DNA from: an uncultured Verrucomicrobiota bacterium
Lineage (GTDB): Bacteria; Verrucomicrobiota; Verrucomicrobiia; Limisphaerales; UBA9464
NCBI GenBank assembly: GCA_903907995.1
Contig: CAIVQH010000001.1
Coordinates: forward strand, 1 to 64,000
Direction: 5' to 3'
DNA: 64,000 nucleotides
The translations under genes and the position numbers were made by a program. Positions 7,446-63,202 of this stretch are shown piece by piece. How positions within the stretch are numbered: the first letter of the stretch is position 1; every line of letters begins with the position of its first letter. Below the pieces are notes generated by a model, which was not told where the DNA came from, ran no database searches, and saw only the letters and a list, made by a program, of their open reading frames with translations.

Positions 7446-7845
7446 CGCGGAAATTGGAACAACCAAGCAACGAAGGAACAAAGGGGGAGGGCTGATCCAA
7501 AGTGTCCCACGGGGATTCGTGAAAGGATCACGGATGGCGGCGGGGCTCCGAATCTCCCCGACCGAATCGGCCCTGCAAATCGCCGCCTGACACCACCCAT
7601 AACCTTGCGCCTCCCACTCCTCCTCAGCCCAGCCCTTTTGCTGAACATTGACGAACACAACCCTGTTCTGGCGCCAGCGGAGGGTCCAAACCGAGTCCCT
7701 TCGCCCCTCAACGGGGAGAGGGTGAGGGGTGGGATGAAGAGCCGGCTTACCTTCGCCCGTTACCATGAACCCACTAAGCGATCGGTTTTAGCCGCTACAT
7801 CAATTCTGGAATTGCTCTAACGTGATGCTGTCCGCCGGTTCCACC
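7446..7845. other. Intergenic region after the terminator
   Basis: Four hundred bases without a defensible gene. It includes AACAACCAAGCAACGAAGGAAC near 7456, similar to the left end of the ~217-bp repeats at 50.2 and 51.8 kb, and CCCCTCAACGGGGAGAGGG near 7708, a small palindrome. The histidine kinase gene ends at 7846 on the other strand. Confidence 0.35.
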
Positions 7846-15810: not shown

Positions 15811-16297
15811 GGCGTCAACCACCGGCTGGCCGCAGTTGTTCACCGCCCAGGGGAGGAATTTAATTTGGAAAACAGGAAAGCAGGAAAGGAGGGGCTTCAC
15901 GGGTGAACTGGTGTGCCAGATACGCGAAATATCGGCGTGCTGCTGACGGGTTGGCCTACAGGGCTGAAAGCCCGTCCAAAGAATGCCCGGGGTGAAGCGA
16001 GCGTGGCGAGCGCAGCCCCGGGTTACCCAGGCAATAGGAGGGTGAGCGCTGTAAGCGAGAGGCAGCCGCCTTGCTTTGGGCCGGGCCTTCAGCCCTCAAG
16101 CCTTACCAAAAACCCTCTCCTGGGGCTGCGCTCACTGCGTTCGCTCCACCCCAGGCATTCTTCGGGCGCGCTTTCAGCGCCGGAGCGGAGACAGAGACAG
16201 GATTGGTTGCCCAGTCCTGAATGGTTCTTGAAATGGGAACCACTTTGCACCCTGACGCATCTATTCCCGCTGGGCGATTTTTTAAACGGCTCTACAC
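15811..16297. other. Intergenic region filled by a large inverted repeat
   Basis: About 490 bases without a defensible gene, between the divergent HhH and tcdA genes. It carries the element at 15963-16178. The last 90 bases before tcdA are T-rich (GCGATTTTTTAAACGG near 16275) and probably hold its promoter, though I cannot assign -35 and -10 boxes. Confidence 0.45.
15963..16178. repeat. MITE-like element with 57-base inverted ends
   Basis: The left arm 15963-16019 and right arm 16122-16178 are inverted copies that agree at roughly 80% of 57 positions, enclosing 102 bases. Recognisable words are GCTGAAAGC, AAGAATGCC, GGGGTG and GAGCGCAGCCCC. No transposase gene and no clear target-site duplication are visible. 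Confidence 0.82.
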
Positions 16298-41184: not shown

Positions 41185-41335
41185 TAACACCCGGCTTCAG
41201 CCGGGCGTAGAAGCGGATCTTGGGCCCAACGGTTTCAACCGTTTCCCCGACCGCCGGTGGCGCTAGCCCGAGCAAACCGTTGAAACGGCTGGGCTGGGAG
41301 GCTGGTTGGATGCCGGGCTAATGCCCGGCGCCAAT
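41185..41335. repeat. Four-palindrome repeat cluster (same family as 4119-4181)
   Basis: In order: CACCCGGCTTCAGCCGGGCG, CCCAACGGTTTCAACCGTTT, AAACCGTTGAAACGGCTGGG and ATGCCGGGCTAATGCCCGGC. The second and third are inverted copies of one another, so the whole reads as a large mirrored structure. The copy at 4119 carries the third and first types only. Confidence 0.8.
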
Positions 41336-41419
41336 GAGAGCGAAGTGCCGCTGTGCCCGGCAACCGTGACGGATTCCACCCTCGACACCGACGTCGCCGG
41401 GTCGATTCTTTCGCCAAAC

Positions 41420-44400
41420 ATGTCTGACTTCGTCCACCTGCATCTGCACACCGAGTATTCGCTGCTCGACGCCGCGTGCCGGCTGGACCGGCTGATGGAG
41501 AAGGCCGCCAAACTGAAGCTCCCCGCGCTCGCGATGACCGACCACGGGAACATGTTTGGCGCGATCGAGTTCTACAACGCGGCGAAGAAGGCCGGCATCA
41601 AGCCCATCATCGGCTGCGAGGTGTACGTCGCCCCCGGCAGCCGGCTGGACAAGAAGCCGGGCTCCAGCACACGCGACCTGTACCACCACCTGGTGCTGCT
41701 CGCGAAAAACGAGGCGGGTTACCACAATCTCGTGCGGCTCGTCACCGCCGCCAACCTCGAGGGCTTCTACTACAAGCCGCGCATCGACAAGGAACTGCTC
41801 GCGCAGCATGCCGGCGGCCTCATCGCCCTTTCGGGCTGTCTCGCCAGCGAGCTGTCGGAGCACATCCTCAAGGACGACGAGGCGAAGGCCCGGGGCACCA
41901 TCGACTGGTTCAAGCAGGTCTTCGGGGCGGAGAACTACTATCTTGAACTGCAGAACCACGGCATTTCTGAGCAGGCGAAGGTGAACCGCTCGCTCATCCC
42001 GTGGGCGAAGGAGTTCGGCCTCAAGACGGTCGCCTCGAACGACGTCCATTACGTCGAACAGGGCCATTGGAAGGCGCATGACTGCCTCATCTGCCTCGGC
42101 ACGCAGGCACAGCTCAGCGACACGAAGCGGATGCGCTACCAGGAGGCGCAGTTCTACCTGCGCTCGGGGGATGAGATGAAGGCGCTCTTCGCCGAGACGC
42201 CGGAAGCGGTGCTCAATACCCTGCAGGTGGCCGAGCAGGTCGATATGAAGATCCGCTTCGGCAAGGGCGCCGAGCACTATCCCGTCTTCCAGCCGCCCGA
42301 GGTGTGGACCCGCGAGGGCTACCTGCGAAAGGTGCTCTGCGACGGGCTGCTGAAGCGCTACACCATCGCCGCCCATGTCGCGGGCAACGACATCGTGGTG
42401 GATGGGATCACCGACCCGAAGCGGCTCGCGTTTTTGTTTCCGCAAGCGCCGGCGGGCCTGGAAAGTAATCAGTCATCAGTGATCAGTAATCAGTCAGAGG
42501 CCGCAACGCCCACGTCTGATTCACTGAATACTGACCCACTGATTACTGATTTACTGCTCACGGACCCGCGCCATCCGCACGTCCAGGCCGCCATCAAGAC
42601 CATCCTCGACCGGCTCAGCCTTGAGCTCGGGGTGATCGAGAAGACCGGTTACATCTCCTACTTTCTGATCGTCGGCGATTTCATCCGTTGGGGGCGCGAT
42701 CACGGCATCGCGTGCGTGGCGCGTGGTTCGGCGGCCGGTTCGATGGTCACGTACCTGCTGGAGATCGCGAACGTCGATCCGCTCCGTTACGGGCTGCTCT
42801 TCGAGCGTTTCCTGAATCCCGAGCGCGTAAGCCCGCCCGACATCGATATCGACTTCGCCGACGACCGTCGCGCCGAGGTGATCGAGTACGTCCGCAACAA
42901 ATACGGCCGCGACGCCGTCGCGCAGATCATCACGTTTGGCACCATGGGCGCGAAGTCCGTGCTGCGTGACGTGGGCCGCGTGATGGGCCTGAGCTTTGGC
43001 GAGTGCGACCGCCTCGCGAAGATGATCACGGACGTAAAGTGGGGCCTGAAGGACGCGCTGGAGAAGAACGCGGAGTTCAAGACCGCCTACAACTCCGAGG
43101 AGGTCACGCGCGAGCTGGTCGATTATGCGCTCGTCCTGGAAGACCAGGCGCGCAGCGCCGGTGTGCACGCGGCGGGCGTGGTCATCGGCGCGCAGCCGCT
43201 GGTGAACCTGCTCCCGCTGAAGCAGGACGACGACGGCGGCATCGTCACGCAGTACGCGATGGGGCCGGTGGGAGATCTGGGCCTGCTGAAAATGGACTTC
43301 CTCGGGCTGAAGACGCTCACCGTCCTCCGCAACACCGTCGAGATGGTGCGGCGCACTCGGGGTTTCACGATTGATCTGGAGACGCTGCCGCTCGATGACG
43401 CCAAGACGTACGAGCTGCTGAACAACGCGCAGACGCTGGGGGTGTTCCAGCTGGAATCCGGCGGCATGCGCGACCTCTGCAAGAAGTTCCAGATCCAGTC
43501 GGTCGAGCACATCACCGCGCTCATCTCGCTCTACCGGCCGGGGCCGATGGACCTGATCCCCGACTTCATCAAGCGCCGCCACGGCGAGCAGGTCGTGGAG
43601 TATCCGCACCCGCTGCTGGAGCCGATCGCCCGGGAGACCTACGGCATCCTGATCTATCAGGAGCAGGTGATGCAGGCCACGCAGATCCTGGCCGGATACA
43701 CGCTCGGCGGCGCGGACCTGCTGCGGCGCGCGATGGGCAAGAAGAAGCTCGAGGAGATGGCCCTGCAGCGGGAGAACTTCGTGAAGGGCTGCGCCGAGAA
43801 GAACCAGATTCCCGCACCCAAGGCGAACGAGGTGTTCGACCTCCTGGAGAAATTCGCCGGCTACGGCTTCAACAAGTCGCATGCCGCCGCCTACGCCATC
43901 GTCGCGTACCAGACCGCGTACCTGAAGGCGAACTACCCGGTGGAGTTCCTCAGCGCGATGATGACGAACGACCAGGCGGACCTGGCGAAGCTCGCGCAGT
44001 TCATCGGCGAGGCGAAGGGCTTCGGCATCCCGGTGCTCGGCCCGGATGTGAACGAGTCGGATGTGAGTTTCGCGCCGGCCACGCTGAGCCGGATGGGTGG
44101 CAGCCATGGCGACAGCAACAGCACTGTGGGCGATTCCTGCGCCGACCAGTCACCGGCGGCTGGCACCGCTGACGGTTCGGCGAAGGCTCCCATTCGCTTC
44201 GGTCTGGCGGCGATCAAGGGCGTCGGCGAAATCGCCGTCCAATCCATCCTCGACGCCCGGCGCGAAGGCGGGCCCTTCACGTCGTTGCAGGATCTCTGCG
44301 AGCGCGTGGACACCCGCACGGTGAACAAGAAAGTCCTCGAAGCGCTCGTCAAGGCCGGGGCCTGCGACGCCCTTGGCGCGAATCGCGCCACGCTGTTCGT

Positions 44401-45247
44401 GCAGATCGAACACTCCCTGGCCCGCGCCGGCTCGATGGCGGCGGACAAGGCCAAGGGGCAGTCCTCGCTCTTCGACAGCTTCGACGCGGCTCCGAAGAAG
44501 AAGGTGGAAAAGCCCATCGTCCTGCCCGACTGGCCGATCGCGGAACGCCTGTCCAACGAGAAGGAACTGCTCGGCATCTACGTCAGTGGTCATCCGTTGG
44601 AGCCATACGCCAAGCTGCTCGAACGCTACGCGCTGCACACCGTGGCCGACCTGGCCGCCCAGCCCAATCGCAGCGTCGTCCGCCTCGGCGGCCTCGTGAG
44701 CGCGATCCAGCAGGGGGTGAGCAAGAAGTCGGGCAAGCCCTACGCGATGGTCACGATCGAGGATCTCACCGACACGGTGCAGCTCCTCTGCATGAACGAG
44801 AACTACGACAAGTACCGCGCGCTGTTCGTGCCCAACGCCGCCCTGCTCGTCACCGCCGAGGTCAACACCGGCGAGGACAAGCCGAAACTCTTCCCGCAGG
44901 AAATCCTGCGGCTGGAGGACGCGCCGAAGAAGTTCACCAAGCAGGTCCACCTGCGCCTGCGCGCGGGCAACCTCGACCGCACGAAGCTGGAGACGGCCCG
45001 CGGCCTGGCCGAGGCGCACGCCGGGACGGTGCCGCTGTTCCTCGCGCTGAAAATGCCCGGCGGCGAAACGGCCTTCATCGAGTGCAACGACCGCTATTTC
45101 GTCACCCCCTCGCTGCCCCTGGAGCAGGCGGTGAATGAGACCTTCGGTCCTGACACCTACTTCGCCAAGGCCGACACCGCGCTGCCCGAGCGCGCCTTGC
45201 GCAAATGGGAACGGAAGAGCAATGGCGGCGGCGGCGATGACGAGTGA
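41420..45247 (+). CDS. dnaE: DNA polymerase III alpha subunit DnaE
   Basis: 1275 aa from MSDFVHLHLHTEYSLLDAA. Replicative polymerase. The PHP domain occupies residues ~1-290 (HLHLHTEYS; HDCLICLGTQA). The palm has GRDHGIACVARGSAAGSMVTYLL and the catalytic aspartates D474 and D476 in PPDIDIDFADDRR. The fingers contain MGPVGDLGLLKMDFLGL, a helix-hairpin-helix segment follows, and an OB fold with RLGGLVSAIQQGVSKKSGKPYAM lies near 1090. Residues ~349-379 are a repeat-derived insert between PHP and palm, and residues ~887-923 a second low-complexity insert (HGDSNSTVGDSCADQ). An upstream in-frame extension of 38 residues runs through repeats and is rejected. Confidence 0.97.
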   Translation: MSDFVHLHLHTEYSLLDAACRLDRLMEKAAKLKLPALAMTDHGNMFGAIEFYNAAKKAGIKPIIGCEVYVAPGSRLDKKPGSSTRDLYHHLVLLAKNEAGYHNLVRLVTAANLEGFYYKPRIDKELLAQHAGGLIALSGCLASELSEHILKDDEAKARGTIDWFKQVFGAENYYLELQNHGISEQAKVNRSLIPWAKEFGLKTVASNDVHYVEQGHWKAHDCLICLGTQAQLSDTKRMRYQEAQFYLRSGDEMKALFAETPEAVLNTLQVAEQVDMKIRFGKGAEHYPVFQPPEVWTREGYLRKVLCDGLLKRYTIAAHVAGNDIVVDGITDPKRLAFLFPQAPAGLESNQSSVISNQSEAATPTSDSLNTDPLITDLLLTDPRHPHVQAAIKTILDRLSLELGVIEKTGYISYFLIVGDFIRWGRDHGIACVARGSAAGSMVTYLLEIANVDPLRYGLLFERFLNPERVSPPDIDIDFADDRRAEVIEYVRNKYGRDAVAQIITFGTMGAKSVLRDVGRVMGLSFGECDRLAKMITDVKWGLKDALEKNAEFKTAYNSEEVTRELVDYALVLEDQARSAGVHAAGVVIGAQPLVNLLPLKQDDDGGIVTQYAMGPVGDLGLLKMDFLGLKTLTVLRNTVEMVRRTRGFTIDLETLPLDDAKTYELLNNAQTLGVFQLESGGMRDLCKKFQIQSVEHITALISLYRPGPMDLIPDFIKRRHGEQVVEYPHPLLEPIARETYGILIYQEQVMQATQILAGYTLGGADLLRRAMGKKKLEEMALQRENFVKGCAEKNQIPAPKANEVFDLLEKFAGYGFNKSHAAAYAIVAYQTAYLKANYPVEFLSAMMTNDQADLAKLAQFIGEAKGFGIPVLGPDVNESDVSFAPATLSRMGGSHGDSNSTVGDSCADQSPAAGTADGSAKAPIRFGLAAIKGVGEIAVQSILDARREGGPFTSLQDLCERVDTRTVNKKVLEALVKAGACDALGANRATLFVQIEHSLARAGSMAADKAKGQSSLFDSFDAAPKKKVEKPIVLPDWPIAERLSNEKELLGIYVSGHPLEPYAKLLERYALHTVADLAAQPNRSVVRLGGLVSAIQQGVSKKSGKPYAMVTIEDLTDTVQLLCMNENYDKYRALFVPNAALLVTAEVNTGEDKPKLFPQEILRLEDAPKKFTKQVHLRLRAGNLDRTKLETARGLAEAHAGTVPLFLALKMPGGETAFIECNDRYFVTPSLPLEQAVNETFGPDTYFAKADTALPERALRKWERKSNGGGGDDE
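42464..42556. repeat. In-frame heptamer hairpin inside dnaE
   Basis: The left tract (42464-42498) is AGTAATCAGTCATCAGTGAT followed by CAGTAATCAGTCAGA; the right tract (42515-42556) carries TCTGATTCACTGAATACTGA, CCCACTGATTACTGATTTACTG. The unit (A/T/G)ATCAGT recurs on a 7-base period, and the halves are inverted. The length keeps the dnaE frame open: it encodes SNQSSVISNQS and, after a short spacer, SLNTDPLITDLLL. Confidence 0.88.
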
Positions 45248-46968: not shown

Positions 46969-47034
46969 ACCAGCGTGGGAGCGGCGCCAAGCCCGTCGGT
47001 CATCTTGCCCGCTACCTTTACGGTCAGCGGATTC

Positions 47035-47075
47035 ACTGACCTACTCGCTTACTGACCTACTGGCTCACTCTCGGC

Positions 47076-51797: not shown

Positions 51798-52016
51798 TAA
51801 GGCCTGTATCTGAACAACAAAGAAACAAAGGAACGAAGGGAGGCGGGCACGACTTCTCCGGCGCCCTGTGAAGTCCGCGAGGTCTTGGACTGCGGCAGCC
51901 CCCTGCCGCTTTGGTCGGGGTAACCGGCAAGCGGGAGTCATACTTCGGCCCAGTGTCCATCCAACCGGCGGCCGAAAGCGCCAGAGGACTGGCACAGTCC
52001 AAGACGCTACCGCGAC
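51798..52016. repeat. Long dispersed repeat, copy 2
   Basis: 219 bases aligned with 50232-50447 in direct orientation. Contains GACTGCGGCAGCCCCCTGCCGC and GCCAGAGGACTGGCACAGTC. The ends differ slightly from copy 1, consistent with independent decay. Confidence 0.9.
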
Positions 52017-57898: not shown

Positions 57899-59749
57899 TC
57901 AGTAAACGTCCCGCTGATAGCGCTTTGCCGTCTTCAGCGCGGCGACGTATTCGGCGGCCTGCTCTTTCGTGCGTCCGCCAGCGGTCTCGATGACCGTGTG
58001 GAGGGCGGCGTCCACATCCTTGGCCATACGCTTGGCATCACCGCAGACGTAAACGTGCGCTCCGGCCTCGAGCCAGGACCACAGCTCGGCGGCCTGTTCC
58101 AGCATCCGGGTCTGCACGTAGATCTTTTTGGCCTGGTCGCGGCTGAAGGCGAGGTCGAGGCGCGTGAGGGAACCGTCCTTCGTCCACGCGGTCAGTTCCT
58201 CCTCGTAGAGGAAGTCATTCGCGCGCTGCTGGTCGCCGAAGAAGAGCCAGTTCTTTCCGCTCGCGGCGGTGGCCCGGCGCTCTTCAAGGAACGCGCGGAA
58301 CGGCGCGATGCCCGTGCCCGGCCCGATCATGATGACCGGCTTGGTCAGATCGCTCGGGAGGCGGAACCCATGCGAGACCTGCACGAACACGGGCACGGCA
58401 GTCTCACCGAGGGCCACACGGTCCGCGAGCCAGCAGGAGCAGACGCCCTTTTTGCTCCGGCCGTGGGCGTCATAGCGCACGGCGGCCACAGTGAGGTGAA
58501 CCTCGCCCGGATGCGCCTTGGGTGAGGACGAGATCGAGTAGAGCCGCGGCTGGAGCTTGCGCAGATGCGCGACAAACTCGGCGGGGGTGAACTTCGCATC
58601 GGGACAGGCCTTGAGGACGTCCACGACATCGCGGCCAAAGATCCAGCGGTCGAGGTCGGCCTTTTTCGCCGGATCGAGCAAGGCCAAGAGCTCGGTGTTG
58701 CCGGCGCGGGTCGCGGCGTCCTTCACCAGCGCAGGCGCGGGTGCGGTGATGATGTAAGTCCGCAGCAGCGCCTCGTGCAGGCTCTGCGGTCCCGGGTTCC
58801 GAGTCCCGGGTTCCGAGTCGTTCTTGCCGGGCACGCCTTCGAGAGGTTCATCGCCTTTGGCACAGAGGGCGGCGAGCAGTTCTTCGACGAGCGCGGGGCA
58901 ATTGGTCGGCACCACGCCGAGCGCATCCCCGGCCTCGTAGCTGAGGCCGGAACCCTCGAGCACGATCTCGAAGTGCCGGGTGTCCTTTTGCGAACCGGCG
59001 GTGTTCAGCCGACGGTTGGTCTTCAGGCGGGCCGGAAAGGGATTCTGACGCGAGTAAGCAATAATCAGTGGGTCAGTAATCAGTGAAGCAGTGTTCGACG
59101 TGGCCGCCTTGGTCTCGGCCGCGGCTAACTGATCACTGATCACTGTGTTACTGATTACTGACTCACCGGCCAACGCGGGCCACAACGCTTCGGTCCACGC
59201 CCGGGCGGCCGCCTCGTAATCCACGTCACACTCGCCCCGGGGGACGAGGCGTTTCGCGCCGAGCTTCTCGAGACGTTCATCGAACTTCTTCGAGGCGCCG
59301 CAGAACTCGGCGTAGTTCTTGTCGCCCAGACCCAGCACGGCGAACGCGAGGTTCTCCAGCCGGGGGGCGGTCTCGGCGCTGAGCTTCGCCCAGAAGTTCA
59401 CGGCATTGTCGGGCGGATCGCCGTCGCCCCAGGTGCTGGTGATCACCACGCAACGCGATTCCTTCGCCAGGTCGGCCGGGGCGATCGCGTTCAGTTCCCG
59501 AATGGCCGGCGCAAAGCCGCGCTTCTCGGCCTCCTTGGCGAATTTCTTCGCCAGACTCTGCGCGCTGCCCGTCTGCGAGCCGAAGGCGACGAGCAAGGGT
59601 GTCGCGGGCTTCGCCGGCGCCGCAGCGGTGCCGGGCGCACCGTGGCGGTCGTAGAAGACGCCGGCAAAGAAGCCGTTCAGCCAGGCGCGTTGTTCCGGGC
59701 TGAACGGCGCGTTGTCGGGCAACGTGGGAATGATGTTCGGATCAGGCAT
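57899..59749 (-). CDS. CysJ-like NADPH flavoprotein (electron donor to NirA)
   Basis: 616 aa from MPDPNIIPTLPDNAPFS; TGATG joins it to the porin stop. FMN domain: LLVAFGSQTGSAQSLAKKF (~residues 52-70) and AVLGLGDKNYAEFCG. FAD/NADPH part: RLYSISSSPKAH, GVCSCWLADRV, IMIGPGTGIAPFRAFLEE. The C-terminal RYQRDVY is the typical CysJ end. In CysJ it supplies electrons to a sulfite reductase hemoprotein; here the adjacent hemoprotein is NirA-like, so NADPH-linked nitrite reduction is the likelier role. Residues ~195-232 and ~310-320 are repeat-derived inserts. Confidence 0.9.
   Translation of the reverse strand: MPDPNIIPTLPDNAPFSPEQRAWLNGFFAGVFYDRHGAPGTAAAPAKPATPLLVAFGSQTGSAQSLAKKFAKEAEKRGFAPAIRELNAIAPADLAKESRCVVITSTWGDGDPPDNAVNFWAKLSAETAPRLENLAFAVLGLGDKNYAEFCGASKKFDERLEKLGAKRLVPRGECDVDYEAAARAWTEALWPALAGESVISNTVISDQLAAAETKAATSNTASLITDPLIIAYSRQNPFPARLKTNRRLNTAGSQKDTRHFEIVLEGSGLSYEAGDALGVVPTNCPALVEELLAALCAKGDEPLEGVPGKNDSEPGTRNPGPQSLHEALLRTYIITAPAPALVKDAATRAGNTELLALLDPAKKADLDRWIFGRDVVDVLKACPDAKFTPAEFVAHLRKLQPRLYSISSSPKAHPGEVHLTVAAVRYDAHGRSKKGVCSCWLADRVALGETAVPVFVQVSHGFRLPSDLTKPVIMIGPGTGIAPFRAFLEERRATAASGKNWLFFGDQQRANDFLYEEELTAWTKDGSLTRLDLAFSRDQAKKIYVQTRMLEQAAELWSWLEAGAHVYVCGDAKRMAKDVDAALHTVIETAGGRTKEQAAEYVAALKTAKRYQRDVY
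58791..58820. repeat. In-frame tandem repeat CCCGGGTTCCGAGT inside the flavoprotein gene
   Basis: CCCGGGTTCCGAGT occurs twice back to back (58791-58804 and 58805-58818). It encodes NDSEPGTRNPG on the minus strand and leaves the frame open. Confidence 0.85.
59054..59166. repeat. In-frame heptamer hairpin inside the flavoprotein gene
   Basis: The left tract (59054-59093) has ATAATCAGTGGGTCAGTAAT and CAGTGAAGCAGTG; the right tract (59126-59166) has TAACTGATCACTGATCACTG and TGTTACTGATTACTGAC. It encodes SVISNTVISDQL and SLITDPLIIA on the minus strand. Same word family as the dnaE insert. Confidence 0.87.
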
Positions 59750-61296
59750 CAGAAACGCACCAGGAGCTGGGTGTAGATCCAGTCGGCATCCTGCGAGCCG
59801 GACTTGGAGAAGGTGTCCTCGATGTAGGCCCCGCGAAAGAAGTGGCCGTAGCCAAACTCGAGGTTGGAGAACTTGGTCAGGATCACGCCGCACACCGCAT
59901 CGATCTCGGTGCCAACGAAGCTGCCGTAGCTCGGGTTGAGTCCGTACCCGAGGCCGCTGCCGGTCGCGCCCGTGTTCACGCCGCCGATGGTCGCGCCGGC
60001 CCGGGGAACGCCCGCGACGTTGTAAAAGCGGTCATGGGTGTCCGCGAGCCAGAAGAGGTGGCCCTCCAACGAGAGCGACACGCGGGGATGGGGCTTGAGC
60101 TGGAAGATGGCGCGGATGTTGTGGAGGTTCTGCCAGGACGCGAGGTCCATGTAGCCGTAAAACTTGTGGTTCGTGGGATACAGGTTGTCGAACGTGCCGT
60201 GGGTGCCGTCGTTCGGATCGCTGTCGCCGGTGGCGTAGTTGTACTCGAGCGCGATGCGCGGCGTGCCGAAGGCATCGGCAAAGGTGTAGCCGAAATTGCC
60301 GGAGACGGCGAAGGCCCGCTGGGCATCGCGCTCATTGGCGCGCACACCGGTGGCGGGCCTCTTCCAGTCACCGAATTGCCCGGCGGCCTCGACCGTGTAG
60401 TCGAAGTTGCCCCACTCGTTCGTCGCCGAGCGCAGCCGCGTGCCGATCGTGTAGATGTCGCGGGCGCTGGTGTTGTACGGGGCCGGCGTGGTGAAGGGAG
60501 CGTCGAAGTTCGCCGCGCCCGTGCCCACGTTACGCGCGAGCACGTAAAACTCGGTCCAATTTTTCGGGATCTTCTTCGTGTTGAAATAGACGCCGGAGAA
60601 ATATTCGTAGTCGTTCGACGTGTTGAAGGAGTTGTCGTCGGGCACGACCAGCCGCGTCACGAAGGCGTCCACGCCGAACCACGAGTTCTGCCAGCGCAGC
60701 TTGGCACCATCGAACACACGGCCGATGTTGTTCCAGCCGAACGCACCGACTAGCCGCTCGTCGCCATAGGAAAGCTCCTGCCGCCCGAGCTTGAGCGAGA
60801 CGGGGAACTCCTTGTGGTTGCCGATCGTGACATACGCCTGGTGCAGCTCCATCGGGCCGTCGGATTCCGGGCTGGCCCCGAGCGGCGCGTTGGGCGCGAA
60901 GCCGCGGTTGTCGCTGGTCACGCTGCTGCTGCGGCCCTCGGCGAGAAAACCCCACCACTTGTCGGTGTAGCCGAGCCGGAACAGCACCTTGTCGGCGAAG
61001 TAGCCGTTGTCGTTCGAGATGCCGCCGGGATTCGTACCCTTCGCGGTCGCGGTGGAGGCGAAGTCGCTGTTGCCCGGGGCCGCGAGGTTGTTCTCACGGA
61101 GCTCGTAGCGAAGGCGAACGGAACCGCCGACGTCCCAGTTGGCCAGGTAGGCGTCCTGGTTGCGCAGGTAGGTGTTGATGAAGCCGGGGAAGGGCTGCAA
61201 CGGCGTGGGCGGGGCGTACTGGGCATCCACCGTTGATTGGACGGCGAAGGCCAGGGCGATGGTGCTGAGGGTTGAGGTGAGACGGGCTGTGTTCAT
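59749..61296 (-). CDS. Outer-membrane porin of the alginate-export type
   Basis: 515 aa. Signal peptide (TSTLSTIALAFAVQSTVDA). The mature protein has alternating aromatic/polar strands, GSVRLRYELRENNL, KVLFRLGYTDKWWGFLAEGR, VSLKLGRQELSYGDERLVGAFGWNNIGRVFDGAKL and YTQLLVRF at the end, with a C-terminal Phe as in many barrels. LGRQELSYGDERLVG is typical of the alginate-export (AlgE-like) porins. Its place between nitrate ABC transporter and reductase genes suggests that it passes nitrate or nitrite through the outer membrane. Ligand unproven. Confidence 0.85.
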   Translation of the reverse strand: MNTARLTSTLSTIALAFAVQSTVDAQYAPPTPLQPFPGFINTYLRNQDAYLANWDVGGSVRLRYELRENNLAAPGNSDFASTATAKGTNPGGISNDNGYFADKVLFRLGYTDKWWGFLAEGRSSSVTSDNRGFAPNAPLGASPESDGPMELHQAYVTIGNHKEFPVSLKLGRQELSYGDERLVGAFGWNNIGRVFDGAKLRWQNSWFGVDAFVTRLVVPDDNSFNTSNDYEYFSGVYFNTKKIPKNWTEFYVLARNVGTGAANFDAPFTTPAPYNTSARDIYTIGTRLRSATNEWGNFDYTVEAAGQFGDWKRPATGVRANERDAQRAFAVSGNFGYTFADAFGTPRIALEYNYATGDSDPNDGTHGTFDNLYPTNHKFYGYMDLASWQNLHNIRAIFQLKPHPRVSLSLEGHLFWLADTHDRFYNVAGVPRAGATIGGVNTGATGSGLGYGLNPSYGSFVGTEIDAVCGVILTKFSNLEFGYGHFFRGAYIEDTFSKSGSQDADWIYTQLLVRF

Positions 61297-63104: not shown

Positions 63105-63202
63105 TGATTTACGATGTTCGATTTGCGATTTACGACTTTTTACGAGCCATCGCGACCGCACTGCCGGCTCGTATATCGTAAATCATCAATCATAAATGAT
63201 CA
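63105..63202. repeat. Hairpin repeat of GATTTACGATTTACGA type
   Basis: The left arm TGATTTACGATGTTCGATTT and GCGATTTACGA (63105-63135) and the right arm (63170-63202) CGTATATCGTAAATCATCAA, TCATAAATGATCA are inverted relatives with a 7-base flavour. It fills the gap between the permease and ATPase genes. Confidence 0.75.

Follow-up and report, generated by a model that had tools for sequence, protein, structure and literature searches.

A heptamer hairpin read in frame within a verrucomicrobial dnaE gene, a probable gene-less relative of elements that carry PF05635 genes

Our analysis of a heptamer repeat inside the dnaE gene of an uncultured Verrucomicrobiota bacterium suggests that it belongs with a class of selfish elements whose full copies appear to carry one gene, for a PF05635 four-helix-bundle protein (the 23S rRNA intervening-sequence protein), between two inverted arrays of 7-nucleotide (nt) units. 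The repeat lies in a window of 64,000 nt, the stretch of contig CAIVQH010000001.1 (assembly GCA_903907995.1) that we analysed. Taking the reading as a whole, we think it reasonably probable that the dnaE insert is a gene-less copy, comparable to a miniature inverted-repeat transposable element (MITE), of elements with about five units at each end. Its parts differ in strength: we are highly confident of a heptamer-arm element class tied to PF05635, we hold it very probable that the dnaE insert is a gene-less relative of that class, and we consider it likely that the elements are mobile rather than the product of slippage alone. Comparison of the sequences shows a constant layout, with a 7-nt register, an AG or AGT anchor opening each unit, inverted arms, a G-rich strand read inward and most often five anchors, while the other four bases of the unit vary by element and the two arms of one element match. 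It also shows that elements with the gene and hairpins without it can have one and the same unit within a genus, that elements are present or absent and units replaced at orthologous sites, and that copies in frame within proteins are tolerated.

The host gene, encoding DNA polymerase III alpha, occupies 41306-45247 on the plus strand as an open reading frame (ORF) that opens at TTG 41306, the real start probably lying downstream. Its hairpin has a 5' arm of 31 nt at 42464-42494 (plus strand; AGTAATC AGTCATC AGTGATC AGTAATC AGT) with five AGT anchors spaced 7 nt apart, and an inverted 3' arm of 33 nt at 42523-42555 (minus strand), which reads AGTAAATC AGTAATC AGTGGGTC AGTATTC AGT on the complementary strand and has five AGT anchors at spacings of 8, 7, 8 and 7 nt; the loop without a gene, as placed from the two arms, is 42495-42522 on the plus strand. 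A preliminary description had put a hairpin repeat with an open frame between the PHP and polymerase domains, and sequence, Pfam matches and ORF all bear this out: the frame is unbroken across the hairpin, and the insert of about 31 residues comes after the PHP domain (residues 44-218) and before the polymerase alpha domain, whose match begins at residue 431. That description also took a heptamer as the unit; tandem 7-base units are indeed present, but their constant part is AGT only and the spacing is 7 or 8. The stretch folds as RNA at -38.9 kcal/mol (z = -6.3). With at most one mismatch allowed, the pattern ATCAGTNATCAGT has 7 matches in the window versus 0.09 expected, a number that none of 100 shuffles reached.

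Could the insert be an old structural loop of DnaE that is repetitive by chance? To judge this we compared the source genome (G000; 5.1 Mb, 60 contigs, 95.7 percent complete) with seven further genomes of the same genus (G001-G007); the closest named DnaE relatives are Verrucomicrobia metagenome-assembled genomes, a number of which bear the label subdivision 3 or Pedosphaera, and G000 probably belongs to subdivision 3. The insert is common to G000 and G003, differing between them by one 15-nt (7+8) step, and the linker between the PHP and polymerase domains is variable in length and sequence among other DnaE proteins, both of which would suit a loop. However, the linkers of G001, G002 and G004-G007 are without heptamer arrays, the same linker holds a different heptamer hairpin, of AGTNTTC units, in G025, which belongs to another family of the order, L081 has a tract of GGGTCTG type there, and the AGTNATC motif recurs in six genes besides dnaE as well as at 29 sites that were not identified as coding. 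The comparison of DnaE among close relatives, which the preliminary description had proposed, thus turned up no conserved loop common to all of them, the repeat being shared by G003 only, and we find the idea of an old loop hardly credible.

The search of the whole genome that had likewise been proposed did find the family. An exact tandem pattern gave 49 matches in G000 versus 0 for the pattern read backwards, and these merge into 36 distinct AGTNATC tracts, seven of which lie in long open frames while the other 29 were not recognised as coding. The hosts confirmed by Pfam are dnaE, a flavodoxin/FAD/NAD reductase gene and a U32 peptidase gene; the remaining ones, named by eye, are pheT, uvrA, an RND pump and a DUF1549/1553 protein. 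The AGT anchors are spaced 7 nt apart in 181 intervals and 8 nt in 83. Bare arms (n=65) have a mode of five anchors (25 arms), with three in 11, four in 9, six in 11, seven in 5, eight in 3 and ten in 1, a count that starts at three by selection and includes a few chance three-anchor runs; 3 of the 36 tracts are without an arm of at least four anchors. In an unselected sample of 464 kb of G000 (the window together with samples of 400 kb), there are 16 runs of at least five AGT anchors, exactly five in ten cases, and the shuffle has 0, while three-anchor runs (57 vs 70 in the shuffle) are at chance level. Among the 16 two-armed hairpins the frame is open in 4/4 in genes and 0/12 outside (Fisher p = 5.5e-4), a contrast that is partly circular because in-gene tracts are recognised by long open frames; a readable copy is not the default.

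Period 7 extends well beyond this one unit. Short-period tracts (periods 5-12) in the same 464 kb have period 7 in 32 of 69 cases, vs 0/8 in one shuffle, and a lower cut gives 41 period-7 tracts with a median length of 31 nt in 24 unit classes, so that the constant feature is the 7-nt register and not the sequence. The triple AGTNATC unit itself is patchy: of 58 genomes of the order, 6 have it, among them G000 and G002.

We tested the idea that PF05635 genes are located within such repeats. G000 has seven of these genes, and by eye all seven have an inverted pair of short-period tracts, each with a different unit: GTTTTCG, GGAGTCA, AGATGGG, a 6-nt unit, GAATTAT, AAAAGGT and CCAAGCT. Strict cut-offs in an early tract search yielded only a few inverted pairs, the dnaE pair not among them; these cut-offs were relaxed, and arm pairing later took the place of the search. 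A strict detector of tracts finds inverted pairs at 31 of 66 PF05635 loci (6/7 in G000, 14/29 in the order and 11/30 in named genomes, mostly of other phyla with two Verrucomicrobiota), 28 of the 31 with period 7, against 5/509 windows at DnaE loci, 0/180 windows of the own genome and 0/5 Y1_Tnp genes. About a dozen loci cut off by contig ends were misplaced in this count, which assumed the position of the gene; this is corrected in the arm-pairing score, a measure of complementarity between the two flanks with a threshold of at least 16. Enough flank was available at 62 of the 66 loci, and 47 of these reach the threshold, including 7/7 of G000, compared with 8/372 mismatched pairs, 1/55 outward-shifted pairs and 4/301 DnaE-locus windows. 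The best flank tract has period 7 at 42/65 PF05635 loci upstream and 43/64 downstream (control windows 8/943). Genes of this family occur in 89 of 116 sampled genomes of the order, and 17 of a set of 31 named genomes, most of which belong to other phyla, have them too.

The arms of these genes resemble those in dnaE. Their median length is 31 nt; of 85 arms, 39 have five anchors as judged by length, 23 four, 11 three, 2 two and 10 more than five; and G exceeds C in 81/89 arms when read inward. The aligned unit reads A (64/85), G (66/85), T (66/85), then T/C/G, G/A, N and G/C/A, with an information content of 3.6 bits vs 2.65-2.85 in 12 shuffled controls. Each element contributes two arms, so the 85 units are not independent, and fewer iterations were run for the controls. 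The dnaE unit AGTNATC agrees with this consensus. Moreover, in the congener G002 a PF05635 gene (E 3e-28) is flanked by arms of just this AGTNATC type, AGTGATC AGTGATC AGTCATC AGTGGTC AGT on one side and ACTGATCACTGACCACTGATCACTG on the other. The dnaE insert has the features of the class, namely two inverted arms, a 7(-8) nt register and AGT anchors, five per arm; since its 28-nt loop holds no PF05635 gene, it can only be a gene-less relative, and the layout of its ends is common to the gene-bearing elements.

An independent set of plasmids gives the same picture. Twenty-two records, mostly cyanobacterial, have a relative of the L149 protein, and 18 of them were analysed, a duplicate from Calothrix and three records from Riemerella being left out. 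Paired arms are present on 16/18 of these loci vs 24/306 mismatched pairs, and where a flank has a tract the best one has period 7 in 13/14 cases upstream and 12/14 downstream. On a Nostoc plasmid (L351, NZ_CP046705.1) two short four-helix-bundle ORFs lie next to each other, perhaps the remains of two elements. Three of the 18 plasmid copies sit between cas genes with short-period arms around them (L335, NZ_CP112875.1; L338, NC_019429.1; L348, NZ_CP016476.1), their neighbours being cas6 and cas4 in two cases and cas10 and a cmr3-family gene in the other. Eighteen intervening-sequence protein (IVP) genes in cas loci have been read as having an associated function (PMC3936711); the arms make it likely that the four-helix-bundle genes at these cas loci are insertions and not Cas proteins. 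A phage origin was considered and rejected, one query having found no relative of the L149 protein at E 1e-5 among 50,697 phage records.

The density of period-7 tracts also goes with the PF05635 copy number. In samples from 17 genomes of the order, selected by completeness and a low number of contigs (400 kb from G000, 64-100 kb from each of the others), there are 0-30 such tracts per Mb in the eight genomes without PF05635 genes and 0-78 in the nine with them (one-sided Mann-Whitney p = 0.015), and the Spearman correlation with copy number is 0.67 (p = 0.003). Leaving out G000 gives p = 0.028 and a correlation of 0.61 (p = 0.012), on a shuffled background of ~5 per Mb. The period-9 control is null (p = 0.60).

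Orthologous sites in the genus bear on whether the elements come and go. In the gap between metK and ahcY, a PF05635 element with GTTTTCG/AGTTTTC arms is present in G000 and G005 and bare AGT hairpins in G003 and G002; G004 and G007 have no heptamer arms there, G007 having a terminator-like hairpin, and the contig of G001 ends at this point. The gap upstream of a transglutaminase-like gene holds one PF05635 element common to G000 and G003, with GGAGTCA as the unit in G000 (some GGAGACA in its long 3' arm) and, in G003, GGAGACA in the 5' arm and a mixture of GGAGAC and GGAGTC in the 3' arm; G002 holds a tract of GGAGACA type but no gene, the tract of G004 is more decayed, and G001, G005 and G007 are empty. 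Between cysD and cysN (L151, L293, L274, L275), a PF05635 element has AGATGGG arms in G000 and G003, a similar ORF (not Pfam-scanned) has AGATCGG-type arms in G001 and G006, and G002, G004 and G005 have no such arms. Within genes, G000 and G003 have an AGTNATC hairpin in frame in the U32 peptidase, where G002 and G004 show decayed remains, G005 has an AAGTCCA heptamer hairpin at the identical spot and the linkers of G006 and G007 are short. Repeats in uvrA, pheT and the reductase gene occur only in G000 and G003; the pheT and reductase linkers of other species are similarly long, and plain insertion is not shown at these two.

We also compared 11 AGTNATC sites in G003 (10 of 31 flanks plus L038, which is near another site). 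At most of them both genomes have a tract of AGT type, with differing units and loops; one has other heptamers and one has no AGT tract in the stretch read. In one pair (L028 vs L309) the loop between the arms is inverted between the two genomes, with collinear flanks. From these comparisons the arms turn over fast in place, with the two arms of an element staying complementary, and gene-bearing, bare and empty states alternate at orthologous sites. At L154 and L221, short inverted matches in the host flanks (7-12 nt) go on beyond the arms, and may reflect insertion at palindromic targets.

The preliminary description had imagined a mobile or expanding hairpin that tolerates coding sites. This idea is supported by the seven of 36 AGTNATC tracts in long open frames, by the congeners, most of which have no dnaE heptamers or a diverged linker, and by the repeat number, which differs in frame between the sister species G000 and G003. 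The same difference in number would also follow from simple-sequence expansion, in which slippage acts anywhere, nothing is mobile, inverted arms arise by inversion or fold-back and the PF05635 genes are incidental; most of the 11 AGTNATC sites being common to G000 and G003, and the reported finding that related Cyanothece tracts differ mostly in 7-nt steps (PMC4679880), agree with it too. However, slippage gives no account of the period of 7, the AG anchor, the five-anchor mode or the bracketing of one protein family, nor of entire gene-bearing elements that are present or absent at orthologous gaps, and we consider expansion by slippage an unlikely explanation.

How could such arms be maintained and spread? 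At the level of mechanism, a PF05635 pentamer might bind the array as RNA or single-stranded DNA, one anchor per subunit, and the bound pentamer might hold the arms while copying or insertion takes place. One arm would template the other by fold-back synthesis or conversion, so that the arms stay matched while the unit drifts, as is suggested by arms that are complementary and yet have element-specific units. The enzyme that breaks and joins DNA may be the host's, and we know of no catalytic activity in PF05635. At coding sites a copy would survive only where it lies in a linker and leaves the reading frame open. We propose the pentamer because arms of five anchors match five subunits, a match of number only; 2gsc and 2rld in the PDB, the nearest relatives with a solved structure, have five chains each, and TRAP is an example of a ring protein on spaced RNA triplets. 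XCC0516 (2gsc) is reported to be a homopentameric toroid (PMC4990558). That five anchors are matched to a pentamer, one per subunit, has in our judgement somewhat less than an even chance.

Several observations weigh against the picture of mobile PF05635 elements with a gene-less copy in dnaE. AGTNATC arms are found at none of the seven PF05635 copies of G000, 15 of the 62 loci score below 16 in arm pairing, and the concerted change of both arms is only partial, as the mixed 3' arm of G003 in the transglutaminase gap illustrates. In the density comparison the period-6 control is weakly different (p = 0.046), and G112, with four PF05635 genes, has no period-7 tract in its 100 kb sample. Presence and absence were seen at orthologous sites, with no dated event, and transposition itself was not observed; no transposase or reverse transcriptase was found for the heptamer-arm elements, and no clean target duplication at the orthologous gaps of the genus or the 11 AGTNATC sites in G003, where a duplication is not definable because the flanks are too different and most of the 11 sites are occupied in both G000 and G003. 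The pentamer depends on a count of five, and arms with four anchors are common too (23/85). Lastly, the PF05635 protein of Coxiella is, by one report, probably not produced in vivo (PMC4990558), and G000 gives no match to the PF00078 reverse transcriptase.

This last result bears as well on an RNA-templated mode of spread, in which the PF05635 protein would act like Avd of diversity-generating retroelements, with a reverse transcriptase supplied in trans. A homology of Avd and PF05635 has been noted (PMC10053308), and the PF05635 protein of G002 matches the bAvd family too (E 3e-13). Nevertheless, the PF00078 match is absent from a genome that is 95.7 percent complete; a reverse transcriptase in trans was rejected on that count, and we regard spread through RNA as improbable.

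Other tracts in the window bear on a further alternative. The preliminary description had placed a similar tract in a second gene, and it is there: the flavodoxin/FAD/NAD reductase (CysJ-like) gene at 57899-59893 (minus strand) has a hairpin at 59053-59167, in frame between the flavodoxin and FAD domains, with one arm at 59053-59092 (plus strand), the other at 59128-59167 (minus strand) and an RNA fold of z = -7.6. The reductase gene has a further in-frame tract at 58788-58818, a single arm whose units are of another class (GGTTCCG/GGTCCCG), and an intergenic tract at 47033-47069, read by eye, has AGT-type anchors at ~8-nt spacing on the minus strand. Similar tracts elsewhere in the window, which had also been claimed, are thus present, but the intergenic hairpin at 63106-63200 (5' arm 63106-63138, 3' arm 63169-63200) has a different heptamer, GATTTAC, and a weaker fold (z = -2.7). 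Tracts with an 8-nt period occur at 15867-15892 (GGAAAGCA), 51816-51839 (AACAAAGG) and 7460-7484 (CAACCAAG), and in two of the sampled stretches, L162 and L169, 8-nt units like these are arranged as inverted pairs. Given such hairpins, one may ask whether the repeats are kept for the benefit of the host, as regulator sites or as structural signals (terminator, G-quadruplex, mRNA processing). The strong RNA folds of the window hairpins would fit, and translational regulation has been suggested for TAACTGA repeats just before starts (MacGregor 2015, PMC4679880). Yet the tracts lie inside unrelated enzymes as well as between genes, the unit differs between orthologous sites, and no Rfam family reaches the gathering score anywhere in the window, a result on which a known RNA family was rejected; we think host signals quite unlikely as the explanation.

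More generally, heptamer repeats have so far been described piecemeal, in cyanobacteria, Beggiatoaceae, Xanthomonas and Coxiella, and these separately described repeats may belong to the PF05635 class. A broader proposal, which we offer tentatively and think rather doubtful, is that the scattered heptamer repeats of bacteria are the ends or relics of one unrecognised class without a transposase, in which a PF05635 ring reads a five-anchor array and the arms are copied from each other, so that each element drifts to its own unit and stays readable; the short tandemly repeated repetitive (STRR) sequences, the TAACTGA and GGGAATC repeats, the trnL P6b stems and the ends of 23S rRNA intervening sequences may be grouped in this way. 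If there is one such class, the role of the intervening-sequence protein (binding five-unit arrays) and the origin of bacterial heptamers would both receive testable answers. The IVP genes in CRISPR-cas loci would then be explained by insertion and not by function, and essential proteins would have in these elements a natural supply of peptides inserted in frame. In the open-access literature, none of the matches listed (titles, abstract beginnings and passages) linked PF05635 genes outside rRNA with heptamer arms.

Among known systems, the preliminary description had likened the hairpin to Rickettsia palindromic elements, which are reported to be about 150 bp long and in frame in many unrelated genes (PMC10969869). 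The likeness holds for behaviour, since the dnaE insert is also a palindrome in frame in coding sequence, but not for the family: the host here is a member of the Verrucomicrobiota by its DnaE relatives, a ground on which we set the two apart without a sequence comparison, and the PF05635 heptamer-arm elements are the better relatives. We know of no heptamer arms in the Rickettsia elements. Repetitive extragenic palindromic (REP) systems with REP-associated tyrosine transposases (RAYT) combine numerous short palindromes with a protein gene in few copies; unlike the PF05635 genes, the five Y1_Tnp genes of G000 are without inverted short-period arms (0/5), and Y1_Tnp/RAYT was rejected as the partner protein. 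Beside three of them (L157, L158, L159) other palindromic, REP-like repeats were seen by eye, a separate repeat system.

Cyanobacterial heptamer repeats include the STRR sequences. Heptamers also make up the Nostoc trnL P6b stems, with Class I TDNGATT, Class II NNTGAGT and repeated replacement of the class in place (PMC4476775); NNTGAGT is a rotation of AGTNNTG, whereas these stems stand in a group I intron, and a link to PF05635 was not seen in the passages describing them (PMC4476775). The TAACTGA repeats of Beggiatoaceae, cyanobacteria and Bacteroidetes, described as having no evident transmission mechanism (PMC4679880), have the complement TCAGTTA, that is AGTTATC, which falls within AGTNATC; unlike the dnaE hairpin, they are nearly all direct, 169 sets against one indirect (PMC4679880). 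In Xanthomonas campestris, 186 GGGAATC tracts are reported, mostly of four units, some intragenic and with 70 convergent inverted pairs in X. campestris pathovar campestris (Xcc), and these have been interpreted as G-quadruplex formers (PMC4692102). Also close to the heptamer-arm elements are the 23S rRNA intervening sequences (IVS) of Coxiella and Leptospira, which likewise have a PF05635 ORF between pairing inverted ends. The Coxiella IVS is described as having two to three tandem GACAGAT heptamers and a degenerate one upstream of the ORF, in a number that varies by strain, and ends that pair, and as being excised by RNase III, its function and origin being called unclear by the authors (PMC4990558), and IVP ORFs are reported in 16S and 23S insertions of candidate phyla radiation (CPR) bacteria (PMC11270868). 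The dnaE insert differs from the 23S rRNA IVS in lying in a protein gene, in having no ORF and in its unit, AGTNATC, and it resembles them in that its ends form a stem.

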